Below are positions 1,948-62,065 of a DNA stretch of 64,000 bases, one piece after another. Origin of the DNA: Sycon ciliatum (Eukaryota; Porifera; Calcarea; Leucosolenida; Sycettidae); NCBI RefSeq assembly GCF_964019385.1, contig NC_088645.1, forward strand, positions 34,969,720 through 35,033,719, written 5' to 3'. Both the position numbers and the translations under genes were made by a program. Position 1 is the first letter of the stretch. Each line of letters begins with the position of its first letter. The notes below the pieces were generated by a model. It searched no databases and was not told where the DNA came from. It saw only the letters and a program-made list of their open reading frames with translations.

Positions 1948-2856
1948 TCATCAATGTGTACCAGTACCCGCATCTGCACCAACAGGGCTTGAATCCGCAG
2001 CTCCGGGCGAGACGTACGCTAGTTGTACCCTCTCTACACCACGAACAAGCAATGCCAGTCGTACTACTGACAAGCCTGTCAGTACCAAGTACGACTGGTC
2101 GATCGTACTTGAAGCCGCCAACCGCCACAGGAAGCCCGCAGATCTGCGTGGAGGTAAGAAAATAGCACGCAGAGTTGTATTCGTTGGGGGCATCAATATC
2201 AACTGCAGTGCTGATGATCTTGTTGCGTACTGTAGAAAGAAGAATGTGGAAGTTAGGCTGTGTTTACATGAAGCGTTTCAACCCGGGTTGAGTTCGACCC
2301 GGGTCAGATTTCAACCCGCCATGTGCACAAAGTGAATGGCGCGTTTACATGACGCATTGCGCTTGACCCGGGTTGAAATTTCGCCCCGGGTTGATTTCAA
2401 CCCTCCCCCCAAGGGGAGGGTTGAAATCAACCCGGGTCAAGAAAATCGTACAAACGTACTTCTGTGCGTATCTCGCGCCAGGTTTGAACGGCACTGCAGA
2501 TGCAAATTTCGCGCGAACGGATTCACGTGACCATACAGGACTGTAGAAGTGGACTTTTGGCGGCATATCAGTATTTGACCCGGGTCAACTGTCTTCATGT
2601 AAACGCTCACCTCTTTTGGCTATCGTACAGACTTTCAACCCGGGCTGAACTCGACCCGGGTTGAAATTTCTCATGTAAACACAGCCTTACTGGCTGTAGA
2701 CTGATCCCCTCCAGAACAGTGTACGGCACGTTGTACGCACATCTGACAGTTGCTGAGCATGACGAAAGAAATGTTCTGGAAAACGATTTCTGGCCCGAGC
2801 ATGTAACAGCACGAGAATGGAAGTTCAAGAACCCACCCCTCCCCAAGAAATCATAA
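1948..2856 (+). pseudogene. LINE-A ORF1 (3' part), split by a MITE
   Basis: The left part (to 2255) is a Ser/Thr/Pro-rich stretch followed by a basic segment and the phrase RRVVFVGGININCSADDL, which looks like the RNA-binding fold in ORF1 proteins of CR1/L2-type LINEs. The right part (2689-2853) continues with TGCRLIPSRTVYGTLYAHLT and ends FWPEHVTAREWKF before TAA at 2854. Between them lies a 431-bp MITE with a TTA duplication. Removing the MITE and one TTA copy brings the two parts into one frame, so the insertion is clean and later than the LINE. The family role is RNA binding and chaperoning in the retrotransposition complex. The N-terminus is missing. Confidence 0.75.
2256..2686. mobile_element. 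Harbinger-like MITE (431 bp) inside LINE-A ORF1
   Basis: Terminal inverted repeats begin GGCTGTGTTTACATGA on both ends, flanked by a 3-bp TTA duplication (2253-2255 and 2687-2689). A TWA target duplication is the hallmark of the PIF/Harbinger superfamily. The interior has nested palindromes built on AACCCGGGTTGAA and a central hairpin around CCCTCCCCCCAAGGGGAGGG (about 2400-2425). No coding capacity, so it is non-autonomous. Confidence 0.85.
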
Positions 2857-2862
2857 ACTGTG

Positions 2863-5800
2863 ATGTTGAATCCACACGCACCCATCTTTTTTCCCACATC
2901 ACCACACGCTTTTACTCTTAACCCAAATGCAGCCCCGTTCTCTCCCGGCCGACAATCGCAAGTTACCGCACTGAACCCTCTTGCTCCACCATTCCAACCG
3001 TCCCCTTTGACTTTCAACTTTTCACCTTGTATTCCTGATATGAAGTCTCCGTCGAGTATCAGGATCTGCACAGTTAACGCATGCAGCTGGCTGAAGCGGG
3101 CTGATGAGATTAAAAACTTATTCTGCACATCTCAACTAGATATCTTGGGCATAACCGAAACCTGGTTGACTCCTGATATCACAAGTTCAATATTAACACC
3201 GTCAGCTGAATACAAAATTATCCGGCATGACCGTCACAACAATACCGTGCGACATGGAGGTGGAGTGGCATTCCTCCTCCACCCTTCCATTTCCCATACT
3301 ACCAAACATCGTCCAGATTTTCAGCCTGCTGATCCAACCATTGAAATTGTGTGCATAGAACTAGAGCATCGCCCCAACTCCACGTTTGTGTTCTGTTGTT
3401 ACCGTCCTCCTTGGCAGCCACCTGATCAGTTCTGCAGCGCACTCCGGACCTGCATTCAATCAATATCTTGTCCTCAAGCTTCCATATTTGTCATTGGCGA
3501 CTTTAACGCTCGCCTCTCGAAATGGCTTGCATCCGATCCTGATACACCTGCTGGTACATGCATGTATGACACCCTGGATGATCTGGGCTTATCGCAACTT
3601 GTGGATCAACAGCCTACCCGCTACTCCGCAAGTGGTAAGAGTTCATCACTACTCGACCTAGTTATCACTAATGCTCCAATAGCAGTCTCCCATCTCACCA
3701 TCCTCCCACCGGTATCTGATCACTGTCCTGTAGTTTTCGATGTCGTCCACAACCGATCAGCAGGCTCCACAGCCCAAATATCTTCTGCACAAAACACCTG
3801 GCTCGACTTTGCCCACACGGACTGGCAAGCATTTAACAACCACGTGTGGCAACTACCCTTGCTAGATGCCGTCCAAAATGCGCAAACAGTTGATGAGGCC
3901 TGGTCATTGTGGCGCACAGCGCTGGAAGACTCTGTATCGTTGTTTGTTCCCGTTGTCCGGAGAAGCACATTTCCATCGAACAAGCCTTGGTACTCTGCTG
4001 TTCACCATCGTCAGAGGCGGCTTCGGGATCGCCTCTTCGCCAAGGCCAAACGTCTCGGATCTACAGATAGTTGGATAGCGTATAGACTCTCACGTAACTG
4101 TCTTACTTCCTTGCTCCGGAAGGCGAAACGCCATTATCACGAGAGGATGGCGAGAGACATGGCTCAGCATCATGGAACCCGTACATGGTGGCGCAAAGCA
4201 AAGATCCTTTGTAATGGGAATCGCCCGTCTCCGGTTATCCCTGACCTCTACCATGACAACCAAGCCTACCCAGCCACGAGTAATACGGAAAAGACGAATC
4301 TCCTAGCCAAAGTGTTTGCGAGCTACAGCCAGGCGCGACTGCTAACACCTGACCTGCACTCAGCTGGTATTTTAACACCCACGTCCACTGTGAAGTTCTC
4401 CATACAACCATTCTCTGTGCAGTCCGTATTTGACACGCTATCCAGACTTCCCATTCAACGTAAAACCGCTGGACTGCTGAACAATCGCATCCTCCGTGAA
4501 ACAGCTGAGGTCACGTCACAGTCTCTTTCCGCCCTTTTCAACCGCTGCTTGCTGTCCAGTACTCAGCCCAGGGAGTGGAAATCTGCCGTTGTTGTACCTG
4601 TGTTCAAGGGAAAAGGTAATCCTTCTCACCCAGTCAATTACCGTCCTATATCGCTGTTAAATGCAGTTGCCAAATTGTATGAGTCTATGATTAGCCGTCA
4701 GTTTTACTCGTTTGTTGAGAGCCATACAATTATCAGTTCCAGCTAGTTTGGCTTTTGTCGAAAGAGATCAACAGTTGACCAATTGGTACAGCTTACCTCA
4801 ATTGTTTCGCGTGCATTTGACTCTAAGTCTTCTTGTGACCAGCTGTTTCTTGATTTTTCTAAGGCCTTTGACAGAGTTAGTCATCACTTAGTTATTCAAT
4901 CTGTTTCAGGTTGGTGTTCTCTTTCTGCCTGTTCTTGGGTGAAGGACTTCATCAGTGATCGTAGTATTTGCGTTCGCATTGGCCAAACTCTTTCTGACCC
5001 TTTGCCCATCACCGCTGGCGTACCCCAAGGTTCCCATCTCGGCCCGCTTCTTTTTAACCTGTGCATCAACTCCTTTCCTGATGCCCCTGTTTCTAGTACC
5101 CTATCCCTTTTTGCTGATGACTCTAATTTAATTCTTGTTTCTCCAGCAAACACCTCACTTCCTATCCATCATGCATTGCTCCAGACTGATATTGATAAGT
5201 GTTGTCAATGGTCATCAGCTACTGCCATGACGTTTAACACCAGTAAATGCGTCCACCTACCCTTTCAAAAATATTCATTAGCCCCCGGCCCGTCATCCCC
5301 CTTGACAATGAACGGTGTGCCTATTCAGAAAGGTGATAGCCACTGTCATCTCGGCGTGACTATCACTCCTTCACTAAATTTTTCTGACCATATAAAATCT
5401 ATCACCCATAAGTTTCGCAGTCGTGTTTTTCTGTTGCGCCATATGGCCCATTTCCTTTCTGCTTCAACCGTGAATTTGCTCTACAAGTGTTACGTACGAC
5501 CACTGTTAGAATACGCAGTCCCTGTCTGGTCATTCGCCGTATCCCATTCAGATTCGCTTACGTTAGACCGACTGCAAGCCGTTGCTGCTCGTTCATATCT
5601 GCTTTGTAAGACCCGGCACCCTCCTGAGTGGGAAACCCCGAAGCAGATTCTTAATCGTACTTGTGACTGGTCATCCCTGAAGTGGCGTCGTCAGATTCTG
5701 TCCTTGCTGTATTTTCATCATGTCTTTTACCAGTTTCCGTCTTTGCTAATTCGTTTCAAATTCAATGTATCCCTTAGTTGTCGTCACCCGTCCTCTATAG

Positions 5801-5982
5801 TTTTACCTCGTTCTGGCGCCCATTTCCTTAAATCCCCTCTCGTCAGTTTATCTGTGGAATGGAACAAACTTCCAGAACACATCCGCTGCGTTCAGTCCTC
5901 TGTCAATGTTCGCATTGCTCTAAAGGCTCATTACTCACAGCATAGATATTCTCTGACTGGTATTCCGAACTTTTCCGTTTGA
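2863..5982 (+). pseudogene. LINE-A ORF2: three PAM2-like motifs + APE endonuclease + reverse transcriptase
   Basis: ATG at 2863 starts MLNPHAPIFFP. Three PAM2-like motifs (LNPHAPIFFP, LNPNAAPFSP, LNPLAPPFQP) occupy residues 2-11, 19-28 and 37-46. The APE domain follows, with ITETWL, then RHGGGVAFLLH, VIGDFNAR and SDHCPVV. The RT has YRPISLL, FLDFSKAFDRV, GVPQGSHLGPLLFN and FADDS, and a C-terminal region ending near WNKLPEHIR. A single TAG at 4744-4746, where LINE-B has a glutamine, interrupts an otherwise continuous frame between fingers and palm. ORF1 ends TAA only 6 nt upstream and in the same frame. Role in the family: target nicking and target-primed reverse transcription. Confidence 0.9.
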
Positions 5983-6250
5983 GAAATTTTTTTCCTTGAA
6001 ATTTATCCTTGCTGGGTTCTTTTTCATCTAAATGTCCCGCTATTATCTGCAGAGGTGATTTCTTCCCTCGTCGATTTCTTTCCTGCTTTTATACCTCGAT
6101 ACTTAGGCACTTGTTTCCCTTCTTCCCATGCTTCATCTTCCACTCTCCTCTCCCCCATTTCCCCATTTTTCTTGCGATATTTATATGGGAGACTTCCGTG
6201 ATAAGCATCCATTTGCTTTTGGAGAATCCTTTTAAATAAATACAATACAA

Positions 6251-10773: not shown

Positions 10774-12658
10774 GTCTGTATGTGTGTGTGTTTGTGTGTG
10801 TCTATGGTCTATTAGTGTTATACATACTAGTACTGCATACGCATAATTGTAGATAGGCCATCATTGACATTGGTCACATAACCAAACCAAATTTCGGCGT
10901 AGTGAGTGGAATACGTGCTGGCAACTACGCTATAGTCATTTCTAGACTTGGACCTGCACACAAGTTGAGCAGGTGCTTATAATTATGGTAACTAGTGGGT
11001 GTAGGGTGTAGCACATCAGTGTTGAATTATCCAAGGACAATAAGTCTACAGTCGCTGCGGGTTACGGCGTCAAGATGCTGGCAGTACAATTGCCAAAAAT
11101 TAACAGCAGTACTGGGTGAATGGTACACACTGCATACAACCAATTCTGTTGCCTTTGGTGAAGCGCTAATACGTACACGGACAAACAGGCACTCCACTTC
11201 TGAGTCAGCCACTGGTACTCTCACTGAGTGAATGTCAGAATGGACGTAGAGGGAAACTCCACCAGGATGTAAATCTCGGTCCCCGCCGTACAGATTTTAG
11301 CCTGGAATATGCACGCTGAGGTCGGGTATACTGCTATCAAGATGAGTTTCGTTAATAGATGAGATATGAATTTTATGAGCATACAAGAGGCGATGGATGT
11401 GGTGTACTTTATGGCGAAGATACAGACTTGAGTAATAATTATATTGATTGATTGATTGATTGATTTTTATTTCACGGATCCTCCAGAGGCAAATAGATGC
11501 CTATCGAAGGGAGTGTCCTAAGTAAGTATGAAAAATGAGAAAGTATGTTCGTAAGGGAGAAGAGGTAGAAGATACATTAGAATATAGAGTACAGAAGAAG
11601 TAAATTCAATACTTCGGGTAGTGCATTGCATGCTAATCATAATGAGAATTAGAAAACCAGCATTGCGGACTACAAAACTGACATATACACAAACTATTGA
11701 AACTATCTTTACTTATAAAGAAGAGGCACCTGTGACGTGTGTCTGTGTGTGTGTGTCACGCTCCTTATAAAGAAGAGGCACCTCTGACGTGGGGGTGTAT
11801 ATCACGCTGAAGCGCTGCCCTGAGCACGCGAAGCGTGCGAACAGTGTAGCACATTGTAGCTAGTGGCCGCAGAAGCACTGAGCACGCGAAGCGTGCGAAT
11901 CGTGTAGCTAGCGGAGGCAGCCACAGAAGCACTGAGCACGCGAAGCGTTCGAATCGTGTAGCCACCACCACGTGCTGAGCACGCGACGCGTGCGAACAGT
12001 GTAGGTGGTAGCGCTTAAGTTAAAGCAGACACGATCAGTACGAGTAGCAGTAGCAGCCGCGCGCAGAAGCACTGAGCACGCGAAGCGTGCGAATCATGTA
12101 GCCACCTAGCCTAGGCCATAGGTAGCACTAGCAGCCGGACCACGTGAACCGTTCTCTGCAAATAGAAACATCTGCAACAAAAGGATACAAAAGATCTGCA
12201 CTGACTGCACTCTGCATCTGATCTGCAGTGAAGAGCGCATCGCACTTTTGTTCGTAAGTTTATGAATTTTTTGAGCCGCTTCATCCGCCACCAGATGATG
12301 GACAACCCTGACCAGCCTCCCGAAGGCGTAACAGACGTCCCTCCTTCTCCTTCCAACCATGAAGAACCTTCCTCGCCAGGACTTCAGCGGTCTGGCCACC
12401 ACCACGTGCTGAGCAAGTGTGCTGTTCATGTACTTGCTTCACCCGCATGCCACATTCGGCCAGGCAACGCTGGCCTGGGGTGCTGCTAGTCATAGATATG
12501 GTATTGATATGAGTAATTGTGTGGTAGCTTACCGTAGGTGGGTCTGGTGCTCTCAGTACGCGAGGAACAAATGACGCTGCATTTGGATTCAGCGGTACGT
12601 GTGACTTGGCTGACGCGCTCTTCGACAACAAATCTCTCACACCCGAAACGCCACGCTC
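9858..12658 (-). CDS. Type-1 gene A, second exon set: PAM2 exon + body exon
   Basis: Minus-strand exon 12658-12533 (126 nt, phase 0, acceptor CTAAG, donor CGGTAAGC) encodes 42 residues with LNPNAASFVP. The body exon, 10373-9858, opens AAACAAGCGTCAGATG after a TTTTCTCTTGAATGTCGTAG acceptor and runs 171 codons to the stop. The body is Gly/Ser/Arg-rich with PPKGRGRGR, a MAGVGKVGASTGP phrase, a SDSDSL acidic patch and a C-terminal GLQGALLGLVTEVHAKNETL helix. The intron holds a LINE-C fragment, a LINE tail, Helitron H1 and a TG tract. No separate first exon is visible, so it may be spliced to the exon at 15463 as an alternative to the upstream set. Function unknown. Confidence 0.5.
10466..10473. 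promoter_or_regulatory. CRE-like TGACGTCA in intron, 93 nt before body exon
   Basis: A perfect palindrome matching the CREB/ATF site, at the same 93-nt distance upstream of the body exon as in the other three type-1 bodies. Confidence 0.45.
10722..10805 (+). repeat. (TG)n microsatellite
   Basis: About 80 bp of nearly pure TG in the type-1 A intron. The same intron carries TG/CA tracts in the other gene copies. Confidence 0.9.
10950..11435 (-). mobile_element. LINE-C fragment: APE endonuclease part
   Basis: The minus-strand frame 11224-11027 reads VVCSVYHSPSTAVNFWQLYC and then CRLIVLG, the phrase that leads into the GDFN catalytic block of LINE APE domains. It is orthologous to 42830-43262 on the plus strand, so the fragment was present before the cassette was duplicated. 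Helitron H1 and another LINE tail separate it from its own 5' part at 12490-12615. Confidence 0.7.
11436..11704 (-). mobile_element. LINE 3' tail with (TCAA)n end
   Basis: Read on the minus strand, the segment ends CTGGAGGATCCGTGAAATAA followed by AAATCAATCAATCAATCAAT, a typical LINE 3' end with a short tandem tail. It is absent from the paralogous LINE-C fragment at 42.8 kb, so it is a later, strongly 5'-truncated insertion. Confidence 0.6.
11706..12489 (+). mobile_element. Helitron H1, non-autonomous (784 bp)
   Basis: The 5' end begins TC (TCTTTACTTATAAAGAAGAG) after an A at 11705. The 3' end is the hairpin GGCCAG-GCAACG-CTGGCC, then TGGGGTGCTGCTAG, followed by T at 12490. TC start, 3' hairpin, CTAG end and insertion between A and T with no duplication are the textbook Helitron signature. 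Inside are five near-identical GAGCACGCGAAGCGTGCGAA units and a short frame (from 12262) encoding the N-terminus also seen in H3, cut off at GLQRSG. The 5' terminal module is partly repeated (11706 and 11761). Confidence 0.93.
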
Positions 12659-41784: not shown

Positions 41785-44700
41785 ATGGACGTATCCAAGA
41801 GAACACCGCGGAATAGTGACAGTGACCCTCCCCGCCTTCAGGTGAGTACATTTTCATTCCTTCAAACAAGGTTCTCAGCGACTGCTTTTATTGAGTATTC
41901 AAACGTCATCTGACTCTCATGAGTTTGAGGCTTTGCTTTTTTTCTTCTTCATATCTTGCACTCTGCTGCCGTGTATTTTATGTTCCAAAATGGCTCGTGG
42001 GAAGATGTTGTCACCAATAAGATATTTAGCAGTTGCGTGTCAGTTATCTGGTGCCCTCGAGATCGAATGCTTTTGAATAAATGAATAATCTTGGTTACTG
42101 ACACTATGTAGATAATGACCATCTTGTGCTTACACTTGAAAGGGAATGTGCACCATACGTAGTTTGGTGCAGTATTACTCCTTTGCTAGTTTTAGAGTTA
42201 GATGGTCAATGTGCTCATCTCCATGTACATGACATGTACATTGTACTGAATCTGCGAACAGAACTGTTGCGTAATTTGTGGGCTCATCAGCGCAGCACAG
42301 AGATAATGAGACCGAACGTGATAGCAATGAAATCATAAATTTTCAAAGGCCAGACATTGTATAAAGACTGACTTGTAAGAGCGAGTCGTATAACGGCAAC
42401 GTTCACGATGCCCCATTTTCACATTTACACTGGAAGTAGGCCTGCAAATTTTACAGTGCAAATGAACTATCAGTGTACTGTTGGAGAACAAACTGGCAGG
42501 ATGACTGAACAGCGACACAGGCGACTTGCAACTGTAGATCCGTATCTCCGACGCTAGCAACTGGTATAACTGCACTGAGGGTGAGTAAACACAAGCGGAT
42601 GTAGTTGATTCTGATGATCTCCTTGCGTTTGTTTGTTTTTCATGGTTCAATCATAGGAGCGTGGCGTTCAAGGTCTAAGAAATTTATTGTCGAAGAACGC
42701 GTTAGCCCAGTCACACGTACCGCTGAATCCAAATGCAGCGCCATTTGTTCCTCGCGTACTGAGAGCACCGGACCTACCTACGGTAAGCTACCACACCATT
42801 GATCATATCAACCCATGTAGTCTTAGCCATAAAATACACCACATCCATCGCCTCTTGTATGCTCATAAAATTCACATCTTATCTATTTGAAACGAAACTC
42901 ATATTGATAGCAGTATACATAACTCCAGCGTGCATATTCCAGGCTATAATCTGTACCGCAGAGACCTAGATTAACAGGTTGGTGGAGTTTACCTTTACGT
43001 CCATTCTGACATTCACTCAGTGTCAGTACCAGTTGCTGACTCAGGAGTGGAGTGCTTGTTTGTCCGTGTACGTATTAGCGCCAAAGGCCACGGAATTTGT
43101 TGTGTGCAGTGTGTACCGTTCACCCAGTACTGCTGTTCATTTTTCGGACCTGTACAGCCAGCATCTTGAGGTCGTAACAAGCAGCGACTGTAGACTTATT
43201 GTGCTTGGAGATTTCAACACTGATGTGCCACACCCTACACCCACTAGTAAAAATCATTATAAGTGCAGGTCCAAGTCTAGAAATGACTATAGCGTAGATG
43301 CCAGCACGTATTCCACTCTCTACGCCGAAATTTGGTTTGGTTATGTGACCAATGATGCCCTGTCTACAATATGCGTATGCAGTAGTAGTATGTATAGCAG
43401 ACCAAAGACACACACACACAATACACACACACATACACACACACACACAGAGTAACACACATCCACACACAAAAACACAAAACAGATACACACACTGACA
43501 CACTCACACATACACACACAGTCACACACACACACACACACACACACACAACCATACACTCACACGCACACACACACACTCACACACATACACGCACGCG
43601 CATACACACTCAAACCCACAAACACACACAAACACACACTCCTGTTTGCTTTGGTTTTTATTATTCCATTTCGCTGCCTCAACAATACAAAGTACACTAA
43701 AGTCTTGTTCAGTGTACTTTCGCAACAATACACATGCAAAAAGGCGTTATATGCAAATGCAGGATATGTACATGACTGTATAAATTATAATCTATGAGTA
43801 CTTCTGCATAGTTCTGCACAGTTTTGACTGATATCATGAGGGTAAGAGAATCACTGTCAATATGACGTCATCGCAACCAATGTGGTAAAGTGATGCACTG
43901 AATTTCGACTGGGTCACTGAATTGCCTGTCTTTGCCCCTTTGTTTTCTCTTGAATGTCGTAGAAACAAGCGTCAGATGGTGATGTTGGAGCATCAACTGG
44001 GTCACAGCCATCAAGTCTAACTTCTACCATATCCTCGAGACAACTCCAGTCTGCGGGGAATGCTCGTTGTCGTCTCCCGCCAAAAGGACCCGGAAGATGC
44101 CGAGCACAGCCTCCAAACATGGCTGGTGCTGGGAATGGTGGAGCATCAACAGGGCCGCCTACTACCGCATATGGACGAATGACGTTGACTCCCACCGACC
44201 AACCTGGATCTAAGCAGAAGATGAGGGATAGTGATAGTGATTCGTTGCAGAGTGCCTCATTTCCATCGAGTGAGTCGCCGTCCCTTCAGGCCAGAAAGAA
44301 GCCTGAATCCAATCGGTTTGCAGGGCTTCGGAGTGCGCTACTCGGCCTTGTAACTGAAATACACGCCAAGAACGAAACCTTGAAAGAGAGGCAACTCCAG
44401 TCTGCGGGGAATGCTCGTTGTCGTCTCCCGCCAAAAGGACGCGGAAGAGGCCGAGCACAGCCTCCAAACATGGCTGGTGCTGGAAATGGTGGAGCATCAA
44501 CAGGGCCGCCTACTACCGCATATGTACGAATGACGTTGACTCCCACCGACCAACCTGGATCTAAGCAGAAGATGAGGGATAGTGATAGTGACTCGTTGCA
44601 GACTGCGTTGTTCCCATCGAGTGAGTCGCCGTCCCTTCAGGCCAGAAAGAAGCCTGAATCCAATCGCTTTGCAGGGCTTCAAGGTGCGTTACTCGGCATT

Positions 44701-44829
44701 GTCAATGAGGTACACGCGAAGAACGAAACCCTGAAAAAGGGCCAGTCCGCACTGTTTTCTGGACATGTGCAAGTGATGAGTAAGCCGAACAGGACTCCCA
44801 CCGAACAACCCGGGCACAACCAAAGCTGA
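41785..44829 (+). CDS. Type-1 gene B: PAM2-containing, Ser/Gly/Arg-rich protein (3 coding exons)
   Basis: Exon 1 is 41785-41841 (MDVSKRTPRNSDSDPPRLQ, donor GTGAGT). Exon 2 is 42657-42782 (acceptor AATCATAG, donor GGTAAGC; starts ERGVQGLRNLLSKNA and contains LNPNAAPFVP). Exon 3 is 43963-44829 (acceptor GAATGTCGTAG). All are phase 0, giving 349 residues. Exon 3 contains an in-frame 351-nt duplication (44041 and 44392): each copy has QSAGNARCRLPPKGRGRGRA, MAGAGNGGASTGPPTTAY, SDSDSLQ and a helical RFAGL-x7-LGLVTEIHAKNE end. The PKGRGR motifs recall RGR/AT-hook-type nucleic-acid binding. Exon 2 is partly LINE-derived. PAM2 predicts binding to poly(A)-binding protein. Otherwise unknown. Confidence 0.6.
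42701..43268 (+). mobile_element. LINE-C fragment: PAM2 + APE N-terminus, partly exonised
   Basis: One frame runs from the PAM2 motif (LNPNAAPFVP) straight through the gene B donor into VSYHTIDHINPCSLSHKIHH and LLYAHKIHILSI, then after a TGA into THIDSSIHNSSVHIPGYNLY, the APE domain start. Further on are LYVHSDIHSVSVPVADS, VVCSVYRSPSTAV and LIVLGDFNTDV, in a shifted frame. Alignment to gene C, which lacks this block, places the insertion between AAGAACGC (to 42700) and GTCCAAGTCTAG (from 43269). It is a third LINE family, distinct from LINE-A and LINE-B. Confidence 0.75.
43405..43640. repeat. (CA)n microsatellite
   Basis: About 235 bp of interrupted CA repeats in the second intron of gene B, in the same intron as the TG/CA tracts of copies A and C. 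Nested open frames are artefacts. Confidence 0.9.
43863..43870. promoter_or_regulatory. CRE-like TGACGTCA in intron, 93 nt before body exon
   Basis: A perfect palindrome, 93 nt upstream of the exon 3 start, as in the other bodies. Confidence 0.45.
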
Positions 44830-44835
44830 AGTACA

Positions 44836-45484
44836 GATGTGTCCGACCAGCCTGAATCAGTATAATACGCAAAGCAGTGATGTTATAATCTCTCGCCGGC
44901 CGAGCGGAGCGAGTGAGGCGGTGAAATGATTTCTCGCGCACCATGTGAATGTGGAATCTAATGTGTTCTCTTTTTGTTGCTGTTCTTTTTGCCTGACTCC
45001 TTCAGTCAATGTTTTGTGCCTCACCAGTGTCTACACCCTCCCACCCTTCATGTCTGCCCATCTTCTTCCATTTCTTTATTGGCTGTAGATATGTTGTGCC
45101 TGTTTTCACGCTGCCATGTTGCCACTTGGGGTTATACACCCGGTTTTTTCCCTCATTCGTGCGTCTGTCGGCGCGAGGTTTTTTTCCCGGCTGGCTCGGT
45201 CCAGAGAAATTAATCTGACGGTCCCAAGTGGTGCTTGTCCTGGCTCTTTTATGTAAGCTGAATGTACTCATTCTTTCCTCCTGGGGTCTGTCCCCCTGTT
45301 GCTGCTCCTAGTTTTCTTCTGCATCACAGTTCACGTCTGGCTGCGGCCTACTACCATCACTCTGTGTGCTCCTATCGCTGTTGTCTGGGTCCATGTCGCT
45401 ATGTCGGTGTATGTGGAGCGAGAAGAGATGAAAACTAGAAAAACTGCCACTGAAGGTACTAAGGACCAAGCAGACTGCATATAG
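44836..45484 (+). other. Type-1 gene B 3' region with TM-coding ORF
   Basis: Orthologous to 9850-9165 and 56094-56793. The frame 45009-45218 (GCRYVVPVFTLPCCHLGLYT) follows an acceptor-like CTGACTCCTTCAG. The frame 45299-45484 encodes LLLVFFCITVHVWL and then VYVEREEMKTRKTATEGTKD. A GC-rich inverted phrase GGCCGAGCGGAGCGAGTGAG is at 44900. The first short frame after the body is closed early here, so coding status is uncertain. Confidence 0.35.
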
Positions 45485-49917: not shown

Positions 49918-50947
49918 TTGTGGTGTTTTCGAGACACGGTTAGCAGTTCGGCTTCTTTAGTGATGTATGTATATTCCTACGGCATCACTGGTTTCTACAA
50001 ATGTGCAAGTGGAATCAAATTCCAGACTATCTGTCCAGGTCTGCTGAGGAAGCACTCTTGTTTGTTGTACTGTTCTAGGGATTGAGCGACCCTGATCTGT
50101 CATCTGTGACTAGTAATGTATGTACATTCTTAGATATGTGTTCATTACCAAGCTGTTTCTGTGTTAGCGCTCTGCTACCACAAAATTAGGCTTCTTTTCT
50201 CTTTTCTCTTCACATTCTTCTACTAGTGTTTACATTATTCCTGTTCACACACACCCATAGTACATTTTATGCATTTTCTGCTGGAGATACACACATCAGG
50301 GTATCATAATGTTCATTTTTATTTTATATTTAATTTCACCGTCAATTGGCTGAGGACAATGCAAAGGAGGGGGCGTTAGCAAGCCGAGGCAAGAGAAGAA
50401 AAAAGAAAGGAAGGAAAGAATGCATCAGCGGGGGGAGAAATTTTTCACTGGGTTGACCATTGTGGGGAGCGGCGAGATAAGCTAGTAAAAGAGACGAACG
50501 AGCCTACAACGTGGCACGACATTTTAACATTGTCTATGAACTGTGTAACTGCATAATTCTGCAATTTTTTCAGCAATGCGAAAAGCATATACATGTATTC
50601 ACGAAAATGTAGGCATAATCCGTCAAGGCCTAACGGTCGGTGTGTAGAGGGCGAGTCTACTGTTTTTGACGTGTTTTCGAGACACGGTTAGCAGTTCGGC
50701 TTCTGAGTCCTGACGCAAAGATAGACGTGTGAGGTAACCCTAGTTGGAATCTTACCGTTTCGTTCTCCCGCTAAAAAGAGCTTTCTATCGCCGAAACGGT
50801 ACCAAACTGATGGTATTTTGGGTTTGGGGTACGAGTGCCGTTGGATCTAGCGCGTGAACTGTAAAATGCAATGTCTACACACACAAAAAAAGGTGCAGGC
50901 CGACCGTCGGAAATAGCGTGAACGGTAAAATGCTAACCATGTCAGCC
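49918..50947. repeat. Cassette remnants, no gene
   Basis: 49985-50170 and 50410-50530 match the type-1 distal 3' region. A ~34-bp phrase (TTTTCGAGACACGGTTAGCA) occurs at about 49925 and 50670. GCGAAAAGCATA and GGCATAATCCG near 50578-50626 recall the repeat at 22.8-23.2 kb. Confidence 0.5.
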
Positions 50948-51925
50948 CTACCCGGTGAGAGCTGGCGTCCACCAGGGCAGCATCCTGGGACCGACACTGT
51001 TCATCCTGTACACAAATGACGCCGAGGACCATCTCCCTCCTGGAATGGACCTCGCAGCATATGCCGATGCCACTACGCTCTTCATCTTCATCACCTCAAG
51101 AGTGTCCATACCTGGCAGCTCTACTATCATGCAACAGGGTGTGGATGCACTGTCTCGCTGGGGCGTGGAGTGGAAGATCAAATTTGAGCCCTCCAGTCCA
51201 AGACCCAAGCCATGACAATCGCACATCATCGCCAGCCTTGGCAGCTCCCGGGAACCACTTTCGACGCTACGCCAGTCAGCGAGGCAGGCCACCTGAAGCT
51301 CCTGGGCGTCACCTTTGTCTCCCAGCTGACATATGCGCAGCACATCCACACGATCAACTCCAGAGCACAGCAACGCCTAGGCTTCCTGCGGAAGGCCTCT
51401 GCTATCCTAGAGCCCCCTGGCCGACTCCGAGCCTACAATGGGTTTGATCGACTTGTGCTGGAGTACTGTCCCCTGGTCTGGCTTGGTGCGCCACCTTCAC
51501 ACTTGGCCAAGCTAGACCAGATCCAGTGACGAGCCATCCACATCATCGGCTCCTGGCTCCCTAGTCGATCTCTGCGGCGGACAGTGGCCTCGCTTGCATA
51601 CTTGTACAAGCTATTCTGCCTAGATGCGGACAGCCCGCTAAAGAAGATCCTCCCCCCTGGTGCCCAACGTCGACCTCAGGACATACAGCCCACCCGCGTG
51701 TCTGCTCAGCCTACGCACCCACACCAGCTATCGACTAACCTGCCAGCACGCACCCGAAACAGCTGTCTTCGGGCATTTCCTGCCAGCGCTGTGCAGACAT
51801 GGAATGCTCTGCCCCAAAGCATACTGCTGAGACCCCCACACCTGGAGGGCCTGCAAGCCTTTAAGTGCCGTGTCCACCGTCACCTCCAGCTGCACCACTG
51901 GAGCTGGGCGACTGAGAGCCTCTAG
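50948..51925 (+). pseudogene. LINE-E: RT palm to C-terminus fragment
   Basis: The frame starting near 50955 reads GVHQGSILGPTLFILYTNDA and AAYADATTLF, so the catalytic YADD is changed to YADA. A frameshift near 51190-51215 leads to the frame of HLKLLGVTFVSQLTYAQHI, LVLEYCPLVWLGAPP, then a TGA at 51527-51529, then VASLAYLYKLFC and WNALPQSIL. It differs clearly from LINE-A and LINE-B. 5'-truncated inside the RT, no endonuclease, inactive. Confidence 0.85.
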
Positions 51926-58708: not shown

Positions 58709-61700
58709 ATGGCGTCTCTTAATCCCCTAGCACCCAGCTTTTTCCCCTCTAAGTCAAATCTAACCAGGCCTACCAGTATATGTCCTACTCACGATGCAGA
58801 ACCCCTCCCTGCCCTTCTTGCTGATGTGACATCTAGCCAGCCACCCTACACGCCCATAACACATTCATTCCACCTTAGGATAGGCCAACTCAACTGCCAA
58901 AGCGCCACTCATAAGATCCCAGTCATTGAGTCGCTACTACACACTGCGTCCCTTGACCTCCTATTCCTCTGTGAGACGTGGTTCTACCAATCACTGCCGG
59001 ATGCAGCCATCTCAATTCCCGGATACAGCCTCCTGCGTAAAGATAGAGACGGTGCCCGGCACTCCGCGATAGGCGGAGGACTTGCTGTTTATATTCGACA
59101 ATCGCTTATGTGCCATTTCCAACGGCGGACCGACCTTGAATGCAAACTGGAGCACATTTGCGTGGAATTTATAGAATCGCAGAACAGTCGAAAGAATACA
59201 TTCCACATGTTTTACAGGCCACCTCACCGATCATCAGCAGAAAAACACGACTTTTTGTGTCCTTCCAGTCCACCATTGCCAACGCACTGTCAGCCTCAGG
59301 CACGACAGTCATTCTCGGTGATTTCAATGCCAAACTCCGACAGTGGAACGCAACAGATGTTGATACGGCAGAGGGCAAACAGCTAGCAGGATTGTTAGAC
59401 GACCTTGCACTACAGCAAATTGTCCGAAACACCGCAACGCGATACTCAGCTACGGGTAGCCAGTCATCACTTCTCGACCTGGTTATCACAGACGCAGAGC
59501 ATCGTATATCCGACCTTGAAGTCCTAGATCCGCTATCAGACCACTGTCCCATAATCTTTAAATATCTCTCAGGAAAGCACACCCCAAAGCACCCGCCGCC
59601 CCGCTTTGTACCAGACTACGCGAACACTGACTTTCAATCTCTACGACAGAAACTTTCATCTCTTCCACTCCGGGAGTGTATGCTCGGTGCTTCCACCATC
59701 GAGAGTGCGTGGTGGGCATGGGAGTCATGCATCACACAAGCCATTGCCAGCTGCTTAGCGTACAGACGAGTTTCATCTCGAAGACAGCAAACCAAGCCTT
59801 GGTTCACCCCGCATCTGCATCACCTTCATCGCCAGAAGCAGCGCCTTTTCCGTGCCGCCAAGCGCCACCAAACAGTAGCATACTGGTTAACCTACAAGGC
59901 CCAGAGGAATGCATATCAGAACCAGTTAAGAAATGCCAAGACCCTGTACTTCAAGCGCCTCAGTGAGAATATTCACGATGAGCAAGATGCCCACCTTTGG
60001 TGGAAGAAAGCCAAGACACTTGCCAACATCTCCTGTAAGAAAGATAAAGTTCCTGACCTAACGTGTGAGGGCTACACGGCACAGAGCGAACCAGAGAAAG
60101 CAGAAATGCTCGCGAAGGTATTTGAGCGCCAGTGCACTCCTGCTCACGGTACAGGTACAATACCAGCACCAGCCGACGACTGTCCGAATGAATTATTCTC
60201 TCTGCCAGTCTTGGCCGAATCCTCAGTGTACCGGGTGCTCCGAAGGCTCCCGCAGCATAAGGCAACAGGCGGGAACATCTCGAACAGGATCCTCCGAGAG
60301 ATCGTACCATGTATAAAGTCCTCTGTTACCAACCTGTTTAACGCTAGCCTCACCTTAGGTGAGTTTCCTAGTGCCTGGAAGCTGGGAACAGTAATCCCCA
60401 TATTTAAAAATAAAGGTAACCCGTGTGATCCCTCCAACTACCGCCCTATAACCCTACTCCCAGCTATTGCGAAAGCACTAGACAAGATTGTCGCCACCAA
60501 ATTCGGTCACTATCTCGAGGTCAACAACATCATTGTCCCGGAACAGTTCGGCTTTGTCCGTGATCGCTCCACAGTTGACCAGCTGATACAGCTCACTACT
60601 AAGATCGCCTCGACCATGGATAAACGCATCCCTTACGATGCTGCATTTCTCGATTTTGCGAAGGCCTTCGATAAAGTGCCGCATGACGTGCTTCTCCAGC
60701 AACTCGGGACAATCTGCGATGCTCCGGCTACGAGTTGGTTTAAGAACTACCTCGATACGCGTACATTCAGCGTCCGAGTCCAACACCATCTGTCCTCCCC
60801 ACGTCCCGTCAAGTCTGGAGTACCCCAGGGTTCCCACCTCGGGCCATTTCTTTTCCTGGTACATATCAACAGCCTACCCAGTGCCTCGAAACGCAACCAG
60901 CACGCTGATGTTTACCTGTTCGCGATGACACCGCCGTCGGCCAAGCACGAACCAAAGGTACCAGCCCAATGGAGACTGCCCTGCAGGACACATTTGCCTG
61001 GGCCGACCGAGTAGGCGGAACCTTCAACCCATCGAAAACCGTTGTTATCTCATTCGCTGAGGAAGGAGCTGCAGAGACCATCCGCGGTATCCAGCCGTCA
61101 ACCAGTCACCGTCACCTGGGAGTGTTGTTGAGTGAAACACTTAGCTTCCAGGAGCATATTGAACAGACAATAAGCAAGTTTAGACAACGCTGCGTTCTTC
61201 TGTGCCATATGGCTGACCGTTTAACAGGAGACATCGTCAGGAAGCTGTACCTTACGTATGTCCGCCCCACAGCAGAATACACCGCCCCAGTATGGGAGTC
61301 CTCCCTCTCTGCTGCACAGCGGCTCACCCTTGAACGGCTGCAAGCCAGAGTAGCTCGCACAGTCATGCGGCTTGAGAGATGCCCTTGCCCATCAGACGAG
61401 CCCAAGTCATCATTGTTTAAACAGCTGGGGTGGCCAAGTCTATCCTGGCGCAGGAAGATCGCCTGCCTTATGGAATTCTTCCATTTGGTCACCACCCAAC
61501 CAGAACTTTTTGAAGCAGCGGGATACTGCCCCACGCGTAGTCGCCGCCGCCAACTCGCATTCACTCTGCAACGGGTTGGGAAACACGCCGGGAAGTCATT
61601 TCTCTTCCGCACCGCTACTGTCTGGAATGCCTTGCCCGCAGACCTGAGAGCCACAGCCTCGCAGTCCCTGTTTCACAGTCACATTTGCACGCACTTCTCT

Positions 61701-61730: not shown

Positions 61731-62065
61731 CATGCCTCTGTCCTCCTTCTTTGTGCGTTGCGCTTATTCTTATTAATTTTTGTGTTTCTGTTTCGGTACA
61801 TTTCGTATTTCAAGTCATATCCCGAGGCTATAGGTATCATTGATTAAAGGACCATTCTGGAACATTCAGCATAATTGTATTTCTCTTGCTAGGCTGTTCA
61901 TTACGAATTATTAGCCCTCCACTGTCTGCTATCTCAACCCTACAGCCTCCCATTATAATGGAACTCCCTTCAATTTAGATTACGTCTTTGGGAAATCCTC
62001 AAATATATAATAATAATAATAATAATAATATGTGGAAGAGAAAAGGACATATCGATACGAGTTAA
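61731..62065. other. LINE-B 3' UTR and flank
   Basis: No ORF. (ATA)n tail at 61995-62030, then CGATACGAGTTAA leading into the TTAA element. Confidence 0.6.

Follow-up and report, generated by a model that had tools for sequence, protein, structure and literature searches.

The LINE retrotransposons of the calcareous sponge Sycon ciliatum encode ORF2 proteins in which a PAM2-type tail, carrying a match to the peptide motif that binds the MLLE domain of cytoplasmic poly(A)-binding protein (PABPC), is real and recurrent. The tail lies at the N-terminus, ahead of the APE-type endonuclease, in three kinds of LINE within one 64,000-nucleotide stretch of contig NC_088645.1 (positions 34,969,720 to 35,033,719; hereafter the window, meaning the whole stretch analyzed) and in further families across the same genome. 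As to its role, we lean somewhat towards the motif being a short peptide by which nascent ORF2p would grip PABPC on its own mRNA.

Three PAM2-type motifs precede the endonuclease of LINE-A ORF2

The element that we call LINE-A occupies the first part of the window, where the following features were placed.

2256..2686, no strand assigned: insertion splitting LINE-A ORF1; its inverted ends, GGCTGTGTTTACATGA, are 16 bp long, and TTA flanks it on either side (from reading the sequence)
2687..2856, forward strand: C-terminal part of LINE-A ORF1, ending LPKKS, with TAA at 2854-2856, in the frame of ORF2
2863..3078, forward strand: N-terminal tail of LINE-A ORF2, residues 1-72, Pro/Ser-rich, before the APE domain (from translation; with the frame numbered from 2860, residue 74 is the first of the APE match)
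2866..2895, forward strand: PAM2-type motif 1, LNPHAPIFFP, an exact match to LNxxAxxFxP
2917..2946, forward strand: PAM2-type motif 2, LNPNAAPFSP, an exact match and the stretch that fits Pfam PAM2 best (the 23.8 bits are for the whole protein)
2971..3000, forward strand: PAM2-type motif 3, LNPLAPPFQP, an exact match
3079..3732, forward strand: APE-type endonuclease domain of LINE-A ORF2 (PF03372 over residues 74-288, PF14529 over residues 176-291)
4744..4746, forward strand: in-frame TAG that breaks the window copy of ORF2 (in other copies the open frame runs on to 1041 codons)
4747..5982, forward strand: downstream part of LINE-A ORF2, reverse transcriptase (PF00078, 74.1 bits)
6235..6250, forward strand: LINE-A 3' end, AATAAA then TACAATACAA ((TACAA)n also ends L010, L042 and L043)

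LINE-A belongs to the APE-type non-LTR retrotransposons (LINEs), as its ORF2 carries PF03372, PF14529 and PF00078; it is also multicopy, with an upstream ORF1 and a common 3' end. We take the LINE families described here to resemble the CR1/L2 elements of the Jockey superfamily. The ORF2 frame of the window copy starts at ATG 2863 and is stopped by TAG after 628 codons; with this stop inside ORF2 and ORF1 split by the 431-bp insertion, the copy is defective. The insertion is MITE-like, given its inverted ends and the TTA on both sides, and we presume that these 3-bp flanks recall Harbinger-type elements. ORF1 and ORF2 are in one frame, with TAA, two codons and then the ORF2 ATG, both in the window (2854-2865) and in L001-L030, a junction reading in which the ORF1 end is absent from L011 and L014. 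This arrangement suggests stop-and-restart translation.

The sequence-only reading of this DNA had placed L-N-x-x-A-x-x-F-x-P motifs at residues 2-11, 19-28 and 37-46, upstream of the APE domain. Each of the three is exact, the spacing of 17 and 18 residues is correct, and the domain that follows is recognized as Exo_endo_phos and Exo_endo_phos_2. Their PAM2-type nature was likewise borne out at the sequence level, since all key residues are present and the window LINE-A ORF2 scores 23.8 bits with Pfam PF07145 (PAM2), for which the curated cut-off is 20 bits. The contact residues of the refined motif are given as Leu (or a hydrophobic residue), Asn, Pro/Val, Ala, Phe and Pro (PMC2854688), and the key contacts Leu, Asn, Pro, Ala, Phe and Pro are found in 3/3 LINE-A motifs. 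The Glu preferred before Phe is absent, with I, P and P in its place; the same source calls this residue preferred, hence not a required feature (PMC2854688). A search of solved structures with the LINE-A tail returned no match.

The motifs were compared with chance expectation at two scales. When the 66-residue LINE-A tail was shuffled 1,000,000 times, 838 shuffles contained one match and none contained two or more, against three observed. Across the whole window in six frames, 6 strict matches were found versus a mean of 0.05 (maximum 1) in 200 second-order Markov sequences, and all 6 are situated at LINE ORF2 5' ends or their remnants.

Two other kinds of LINE in the window carry the motif

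Two further kinds, LINE-B and LINE-C, account for the remaining matches.

12563..12592, reverse strand: second LINE-C remnant, LNPNAASFVP, an exact match; its APE is interrupted and resumes near 11450
42723..42752, forward strand: LINE-C remnant with motif LNPNAAPFVP (Pfam PAM2 22.6 bits), followed by a decayed APE to about 43106
58718..58747, forward strand: PAM2-type motif LNPLAPSFFP at the N-terminus of LINE-B ORF2 (ATG at 58709; Pfam PAM2 14.1 bits); APE follows, and L083 is a second copy
59140..61014, forward strand: remainder of LINE-B ORF2, APE and reverse transcriptase, in another frame, this copy being frameshifted (PF14529, PF00078)
62009..62029, forward strand: (AAT)n, the apparent LINE-B 3' end (one copy)

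The motif is thus found in 3/3 window LINE kinds with a recognized ORF2 5' end (A, B and C). A tblastn comparison using ten LINE queries (E 1e-3) detected no further ORF2 5' ends in the window, and the stretch at 50946-51526 is reverse transcriptase only. Within about 0.5 Mb (contig C3, 34.6-35.1 Mb) there are eight PAM2 hits with LINE-C-like scores, including the two window remnants, so they are probably a duplicated segment and not independent insertions. This cluster ruled out treating the two LINE-C remnants as independent cases, and for this reason the window is counted as holding three LINE kinds. Near the cluster, a repeated unit with recurrent coding-like stretches was noted by eye, for example around 44000-44900.

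LINE-A copies across the genome

Searches of the organism's own genome covered 538 Mb in 313 contigs. The LINE-A protein gave at least 73 matches (70 of 10675 candidates were scored), many of them with the 1041-codon frame open. Among 30 fetched LINE-A loci, including the window copy, strict motifs in one frame number three in 24 and two in 6. In an ungapped alignment of 37 of 44 copies (six without an ungapped tail were left out, together with L045, which has a frame shift near codon 60), 29 keep all three motifs. The motif is therefore present in other copies of the same family, on which the sequence-only reading depended. An A-sister family, 66-67% identical to LINE-A, has one motif, LNPHAPVFTP, with a strict match in two of three fetched copies (L033 is the exception).

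We next compared codons. Among the three LINE-A motifs, key-codon comparisons (n=15) gave 4 identical, 11 synonymous and 0 nonsynonymous, a result biased by the fact that the motifs were picked by the strict pattern itself. Synonymous divergence of this kind fits each motif having been kept. Within the family, distinct changes were 8 nonsynonymous and 3 synonymous in the 18 key codons versus 9 and 4 in the 28 linker codons, and this dN/dS-type check did not reveal the purifying selection on key codons that had been looked for. Such a lack of within-family constraint is what drift of most copies, once inserted, would produce, yet it lends no support. The proposal that three copies imply selection for avidity is thus weakened: synonymous divergence is compatible with the motifs being kept, but among the tails read LINE-A is alone in having three strict motifs, and the within-family changes show no purifying selection on key codons. 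Since family F has two motifs and the other tails one, a single motif appears to be sufficient.

PAM2-type tails recur in many LINE families, including a motif-blind sample

A PF07145 search of the genome yielded 965 candidates, of which 150 were scored and all 150 exceeded the cut-off. We read 30 of these, namely, the best ten (L048-L057) and twenty spanning score and frame classes (L058-L077); two of the other 120 are the window LINE-C remnants. All 30 hits read are LINE ORF2 tails. By eye, 25 of them lead in frame into an APE start (with an intervening stop in L066 and a break soon after in L076), and the other five are decayed or truncated (L058, L060, L065, L072 and L077). Six tail types were distinguished, D/E, F, G, H, I and J. 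Of six representatives scanned with Pfam, D to I, every one has APE and five exceed the PAM2 cut-off, the sixth, I, reaching 18.6 bits. Because families D to J were found through the motif, they say nothing about its frequency.

A motif-blind sample was therefore taken upstream of eight PF14529 hits (150 scored of 4165 candidates), chosen as class representatives and not at random. Strict tails were found in L080 (LNPHAPIFFP and LNPDAPTFTL), L081 (LNPLAPPFLP) and L083, the LINE-B copy. Tails one residue off the pattern were found in L082 and L086, which are one family (LDPNATPFYP), and in L084 (LNPLALPFRL); these may be weakened or lost motifs. No recognizable LINE ORF2 tail was seen in any frame upstream of the APE in L085 and L087. 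Counted as distinct tails, 3/5 are exact and 2/5 are one residue short. The motif is thus commoner in LINE N-termini than chance predicts, at least in its own genome, as its recurrence in other LINE families attests.

Scores varied among the tails. PF07145 exceeded its cut-off for D (23.5 bits), E (22.7), F (21.3), G (21.2), H (21.6), L080 (23.3) and C (22.6), and stayed below it, despite a strict motif, for A-sister (19.3), I (18.6), L083 (15.9), L081 (15.3) and the window LINE-B (14.1); scans of the L082 and L084 tails gave no PAM2 match. Shuffled tails of B, C, L080 and L081 contained at least one strict match in 29-46 of 200,000 cases. A Met lies 1-7 residues ahead of the first motif in 10 of 16 tail rows compared (two of the ten being family F); four rows (A-sister, I, J and L081) have their closest upstream Met at a distance of 11-26 residues, and the other two (C and H) have no in-frame Met ahead of the motif. 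Second, often weaker PAM2-like peptides were seen in the tails of L063, L074 and L076 (LNTSAFPFFP, LNRHAPVCLP and SNVHAPTFCP), hinting that motif repeats are common in other tails.

The motif lies on both sides of 5' module exchanges

Across eight families 28-40% identical to LINE-A, the invariant tail columns before APE are L2, N3, P4, A6, F9, P11, P25 and S27, the first six of which are partly circular because most of these families were picked by motif. Outside the motif, tails of different families are barely alignable. Several elements nevertheless have 5' sequence in common. Families D and E have a common 5' part, with identities of 97.7% across 131 nt and 98.0% across 151 nt, that extends to 12-17 nt beyond the motif, while the APE start of D is that of L081 (100% over 96 nt), whose tail is different and has its own PAM2. 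The 5' part of L080 is that of LINE-A until 12 nt past motif 1 (97.7% over 128 nt), after which it continues with its own sequence and a second, imperfect motif. In L067, an F tail is fused to another APE (by eye). From these comparisons of L052, L061, L081, L080 and L067, the elements are chimeric, the 5' module that includes the ORF1 end and PAM2 seemingly moving in one piece, and the motif is found on both sides of the exchanges.

LINE-A and LINE-B insertions end in short repeats

The 3' flank was seen in five LINE-A copies. Four of them (the window copy, L010, L042 and L043) end in AATAAA-(TACAA)n, with a nine-A run soon after (TACAA)n in L042, and the sequence of L019 diverges immediately before AATAAA. 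The window LINE-B, a single copy, ends in (AAT)n. Insertions ending in (TACAA)n and (AAT)n have not retained a long poly(A), which makes a tether on the mRNA likelier than priming on poly(A). The earlier suggestion that the enzyme holds on to its own poly(A) or A-rich RNA and so gains template preference is weakened to this extent, and its remaining part, a tether to the polyadenylated mRNA, could still operate.

The host encodes two PABPC-like MLLE domains

A six-frame MLLE search of the same genome, which an intron-split domain could escape, returned two domains at 102.7 and 100.6 bits, both containing KITGMLLEID. For L079, the one compared with the PDB, the best matches are PABPC1 MLLE chains, and UBR5 and HYD MLLE chains match too. 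With the pocket residue lists of PMC7356810 placed by hand reading, pocket A (Q560, E564, L566, F567, K580, T582 and L586) is identical at 7/7 positions in both host domains, and pocket B (L569, T576, L597, P600 and L603) is identical to human at 2/5 positions in L079 and 3/5 in L078, the latter with Lys for L569. The two PABPC-like MLLE domains of the host are candidate partners for the motif, and binding of the ORF2p tail to PABPC MLLE is predicted from the motif match.

Discussion

We infer disorder of the tail, its binding, co-translational capture, cis-preference and repeat gain from the features described above. With the motif near the first Met in most tails, it would exit the ribosome early, while PABPC is still on the tail of the message. 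ORF2p would thereby be captured co-translationally on its own mRNA, which is cis-preference, and the captured protein would stay with its own RNP, held near the RNA 3' end for target-primed reverse transcription. Repeats of the motif can raise affinity modestly, as in eRF3, where single PAM2 sites bind at 3.9 and 3.1 uM and the pair at 1.3 uM (PMC2854688). Several observations speak against this reading: the missing Glu, the motif-blind places with a near-miss or no tail, the strict tails that score under the Pfam cut-off, the tails with a distant Met or none in frame, the divergence of pocket B, insertions that keep no long poly(A), and key codons without signs of within-family purifying selection.

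Human L1 offers the closest comparison. On the basis of predicted structures and of mutants, a 2025 study proposed that a segment of its ORF2p, PIE, binds RRM1 of PABPC1 and that this contact sets cis-preference during translation; activity and co-localization are lost in PIE mutants (PMC7617806). The likeness is that an ORF2p segment is proposed to contact PABPC directly, with co-translational cis-preference as the outcome. The two differ in place and in partner surface: human PIE comprises residues 272-297, in a linker, with a predicted RRM1 contact (PMC7617806), whereas the LINE-A segment is at the extreme N-terminus before APE, with an expected MLLE contact. The PAM2 tail would therefore act through MLLE and earlier in the chain than PIE. 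The term PAM2 does not occur in the main text of that article (PMC7617806).

Among cellular proteins, PAM2 is known from eRF3, Paip2, Ataxin-2, Tob and PAN3, and the LINE-A motifs carry all the refined key residues of this class; unlike these, their carrier is a retrotransposon endonuclease/reverse transcriptase, and the Glu before Phe is missing (PMC2854688). The PAM2w of LARP4B is similarly a PAM2-class motif near the N-terminus that binds MLLE, but Trp replaces Phe and the carrier is a cellular RNA-binding protein (PMC7356810). Jockey-superfamily (CR1/L2-like) LINEs are alike in having two ORFs, an APE-RT ORF2 and a variable ORF1; their ORF1 evolution is described as reticulate, ORF2 of one subgroup probably begins with a PHD domain, and neither PAM2 nor PABP occurs in the main text of that source (PMC4120745).

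Other collections were also scanned. Scans of a viral contig collection found no relatives, and of 22 stretches in it that fitted the motif pattern none was a LINE relative. A scan of a genome contig collection found a single LINE, L088, on a Poribacteria MAG contig (JAAXGN010000151.1) that is probably eukaryotic contamination, presumably host DNA. By eye, L088 is near complete, with a PHD-like ORF1 and an APE-RT ORF2 that begins at APE, without a PAM2 tail, which counts against the PABPC reading. Among the papers listed by searches of the open-licence PMC literature, judged mostly by title and the start of the abstract, none linked PAM2 to LINE ORF2; the motif and the protein are each known, and it is their combination for which those papers showed no precedent.

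Four other explanations were weighed. The one that survives best, though we consider it unlikely, is that the PAM2 tail binds PABPC for translation or protection of the bicistronic mRNA, such that, emerging shortly after the ORF1 stop, it would fold the PABPC-bound tail of the message back to that stop and so antagonize nonsense-mediated decay (NMD) and/or aid re-initiation at ORF2. The single frame of LINE-A, with the ORF1 stop two codons upstream of the ORF2 ATG, is consistent with this, as is the finding that tethering a PAM2 peptide to the RNA shortly after a stop suppresses NMD, an effect that its authors read as tail fold-back (PMC5118804). However, two or four PAM2 copies gave no extra suppression in that system (PMC5118804), which leaves the LINE-A repeats unexplained, and the effect required RNA tethering, which a nascent chain would provide only briefly.

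Distinctly less probable is that the tail is inherited baggage, an ancestral LNPxAPxFxP 5' module spread by recombination and having no present function. Such an origin would agree with a 5' module common to otherwise different elements and with recent LINE-A copies in which the motif is not under purifying selection. Yet tails hardly align outside the motif even though the APE-bearing proteins are 29-40% identical to that of LINE-A, the key codons mostly differ synonymously (a comparison biased by choosing families by motif), and the presence of three motif copies in LINE-A also speaks against baggage. We rate slightly lower still a partner other than PABPC, either a non-PABPC MLLE of the UBR5/HYD type or another protein, serving ORF2p turnover, localization or granule targeting: although UBR5 and HYD MLLE chains match the host MLLE query in the PDB, so that type is homologous, both MLLE matches from the six-frame search of the organism's own genome look PABPC-like, and L079 has PABPC1 as its best PDB matches. 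Finally, a chance origin of the matches in Pro/Ala/Asn-rich, low-complexity tails, which are indeed short and Pro-rich, was rejected on the shuffles (0/1,000,000 with two or more matches for LINE-A and 29-46/200,000 with one or more for B, C, L080 and L081) and is opposed by motif recurrence across LINE families, which makes it extremely improbable.

Returning to the capture of ORF2p through PABPC, a broader version of this reading is possible, and we advance it tentatively, as falling a little short of probable. In most of the LINE families present here, ORF2p would open with a tail dedicated to docking on PABPC and thereby capture its own mRNA during translation. This cis-preference device would have arisen independently of human PIE, use another face of PABPC and be retained through 5' module swaps. 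How a LINE enzyme selects its own RNA is a long-standing question, and if this proposal is true, a compact motif would make cis-preference testable by single-residue changes. Human L1 and these LINEs would then represent two routes to one host hub, PABPC. Retrotransposon proteins would join the users of MLLE, and the region before APE would gain a functional label in repeat annotation.
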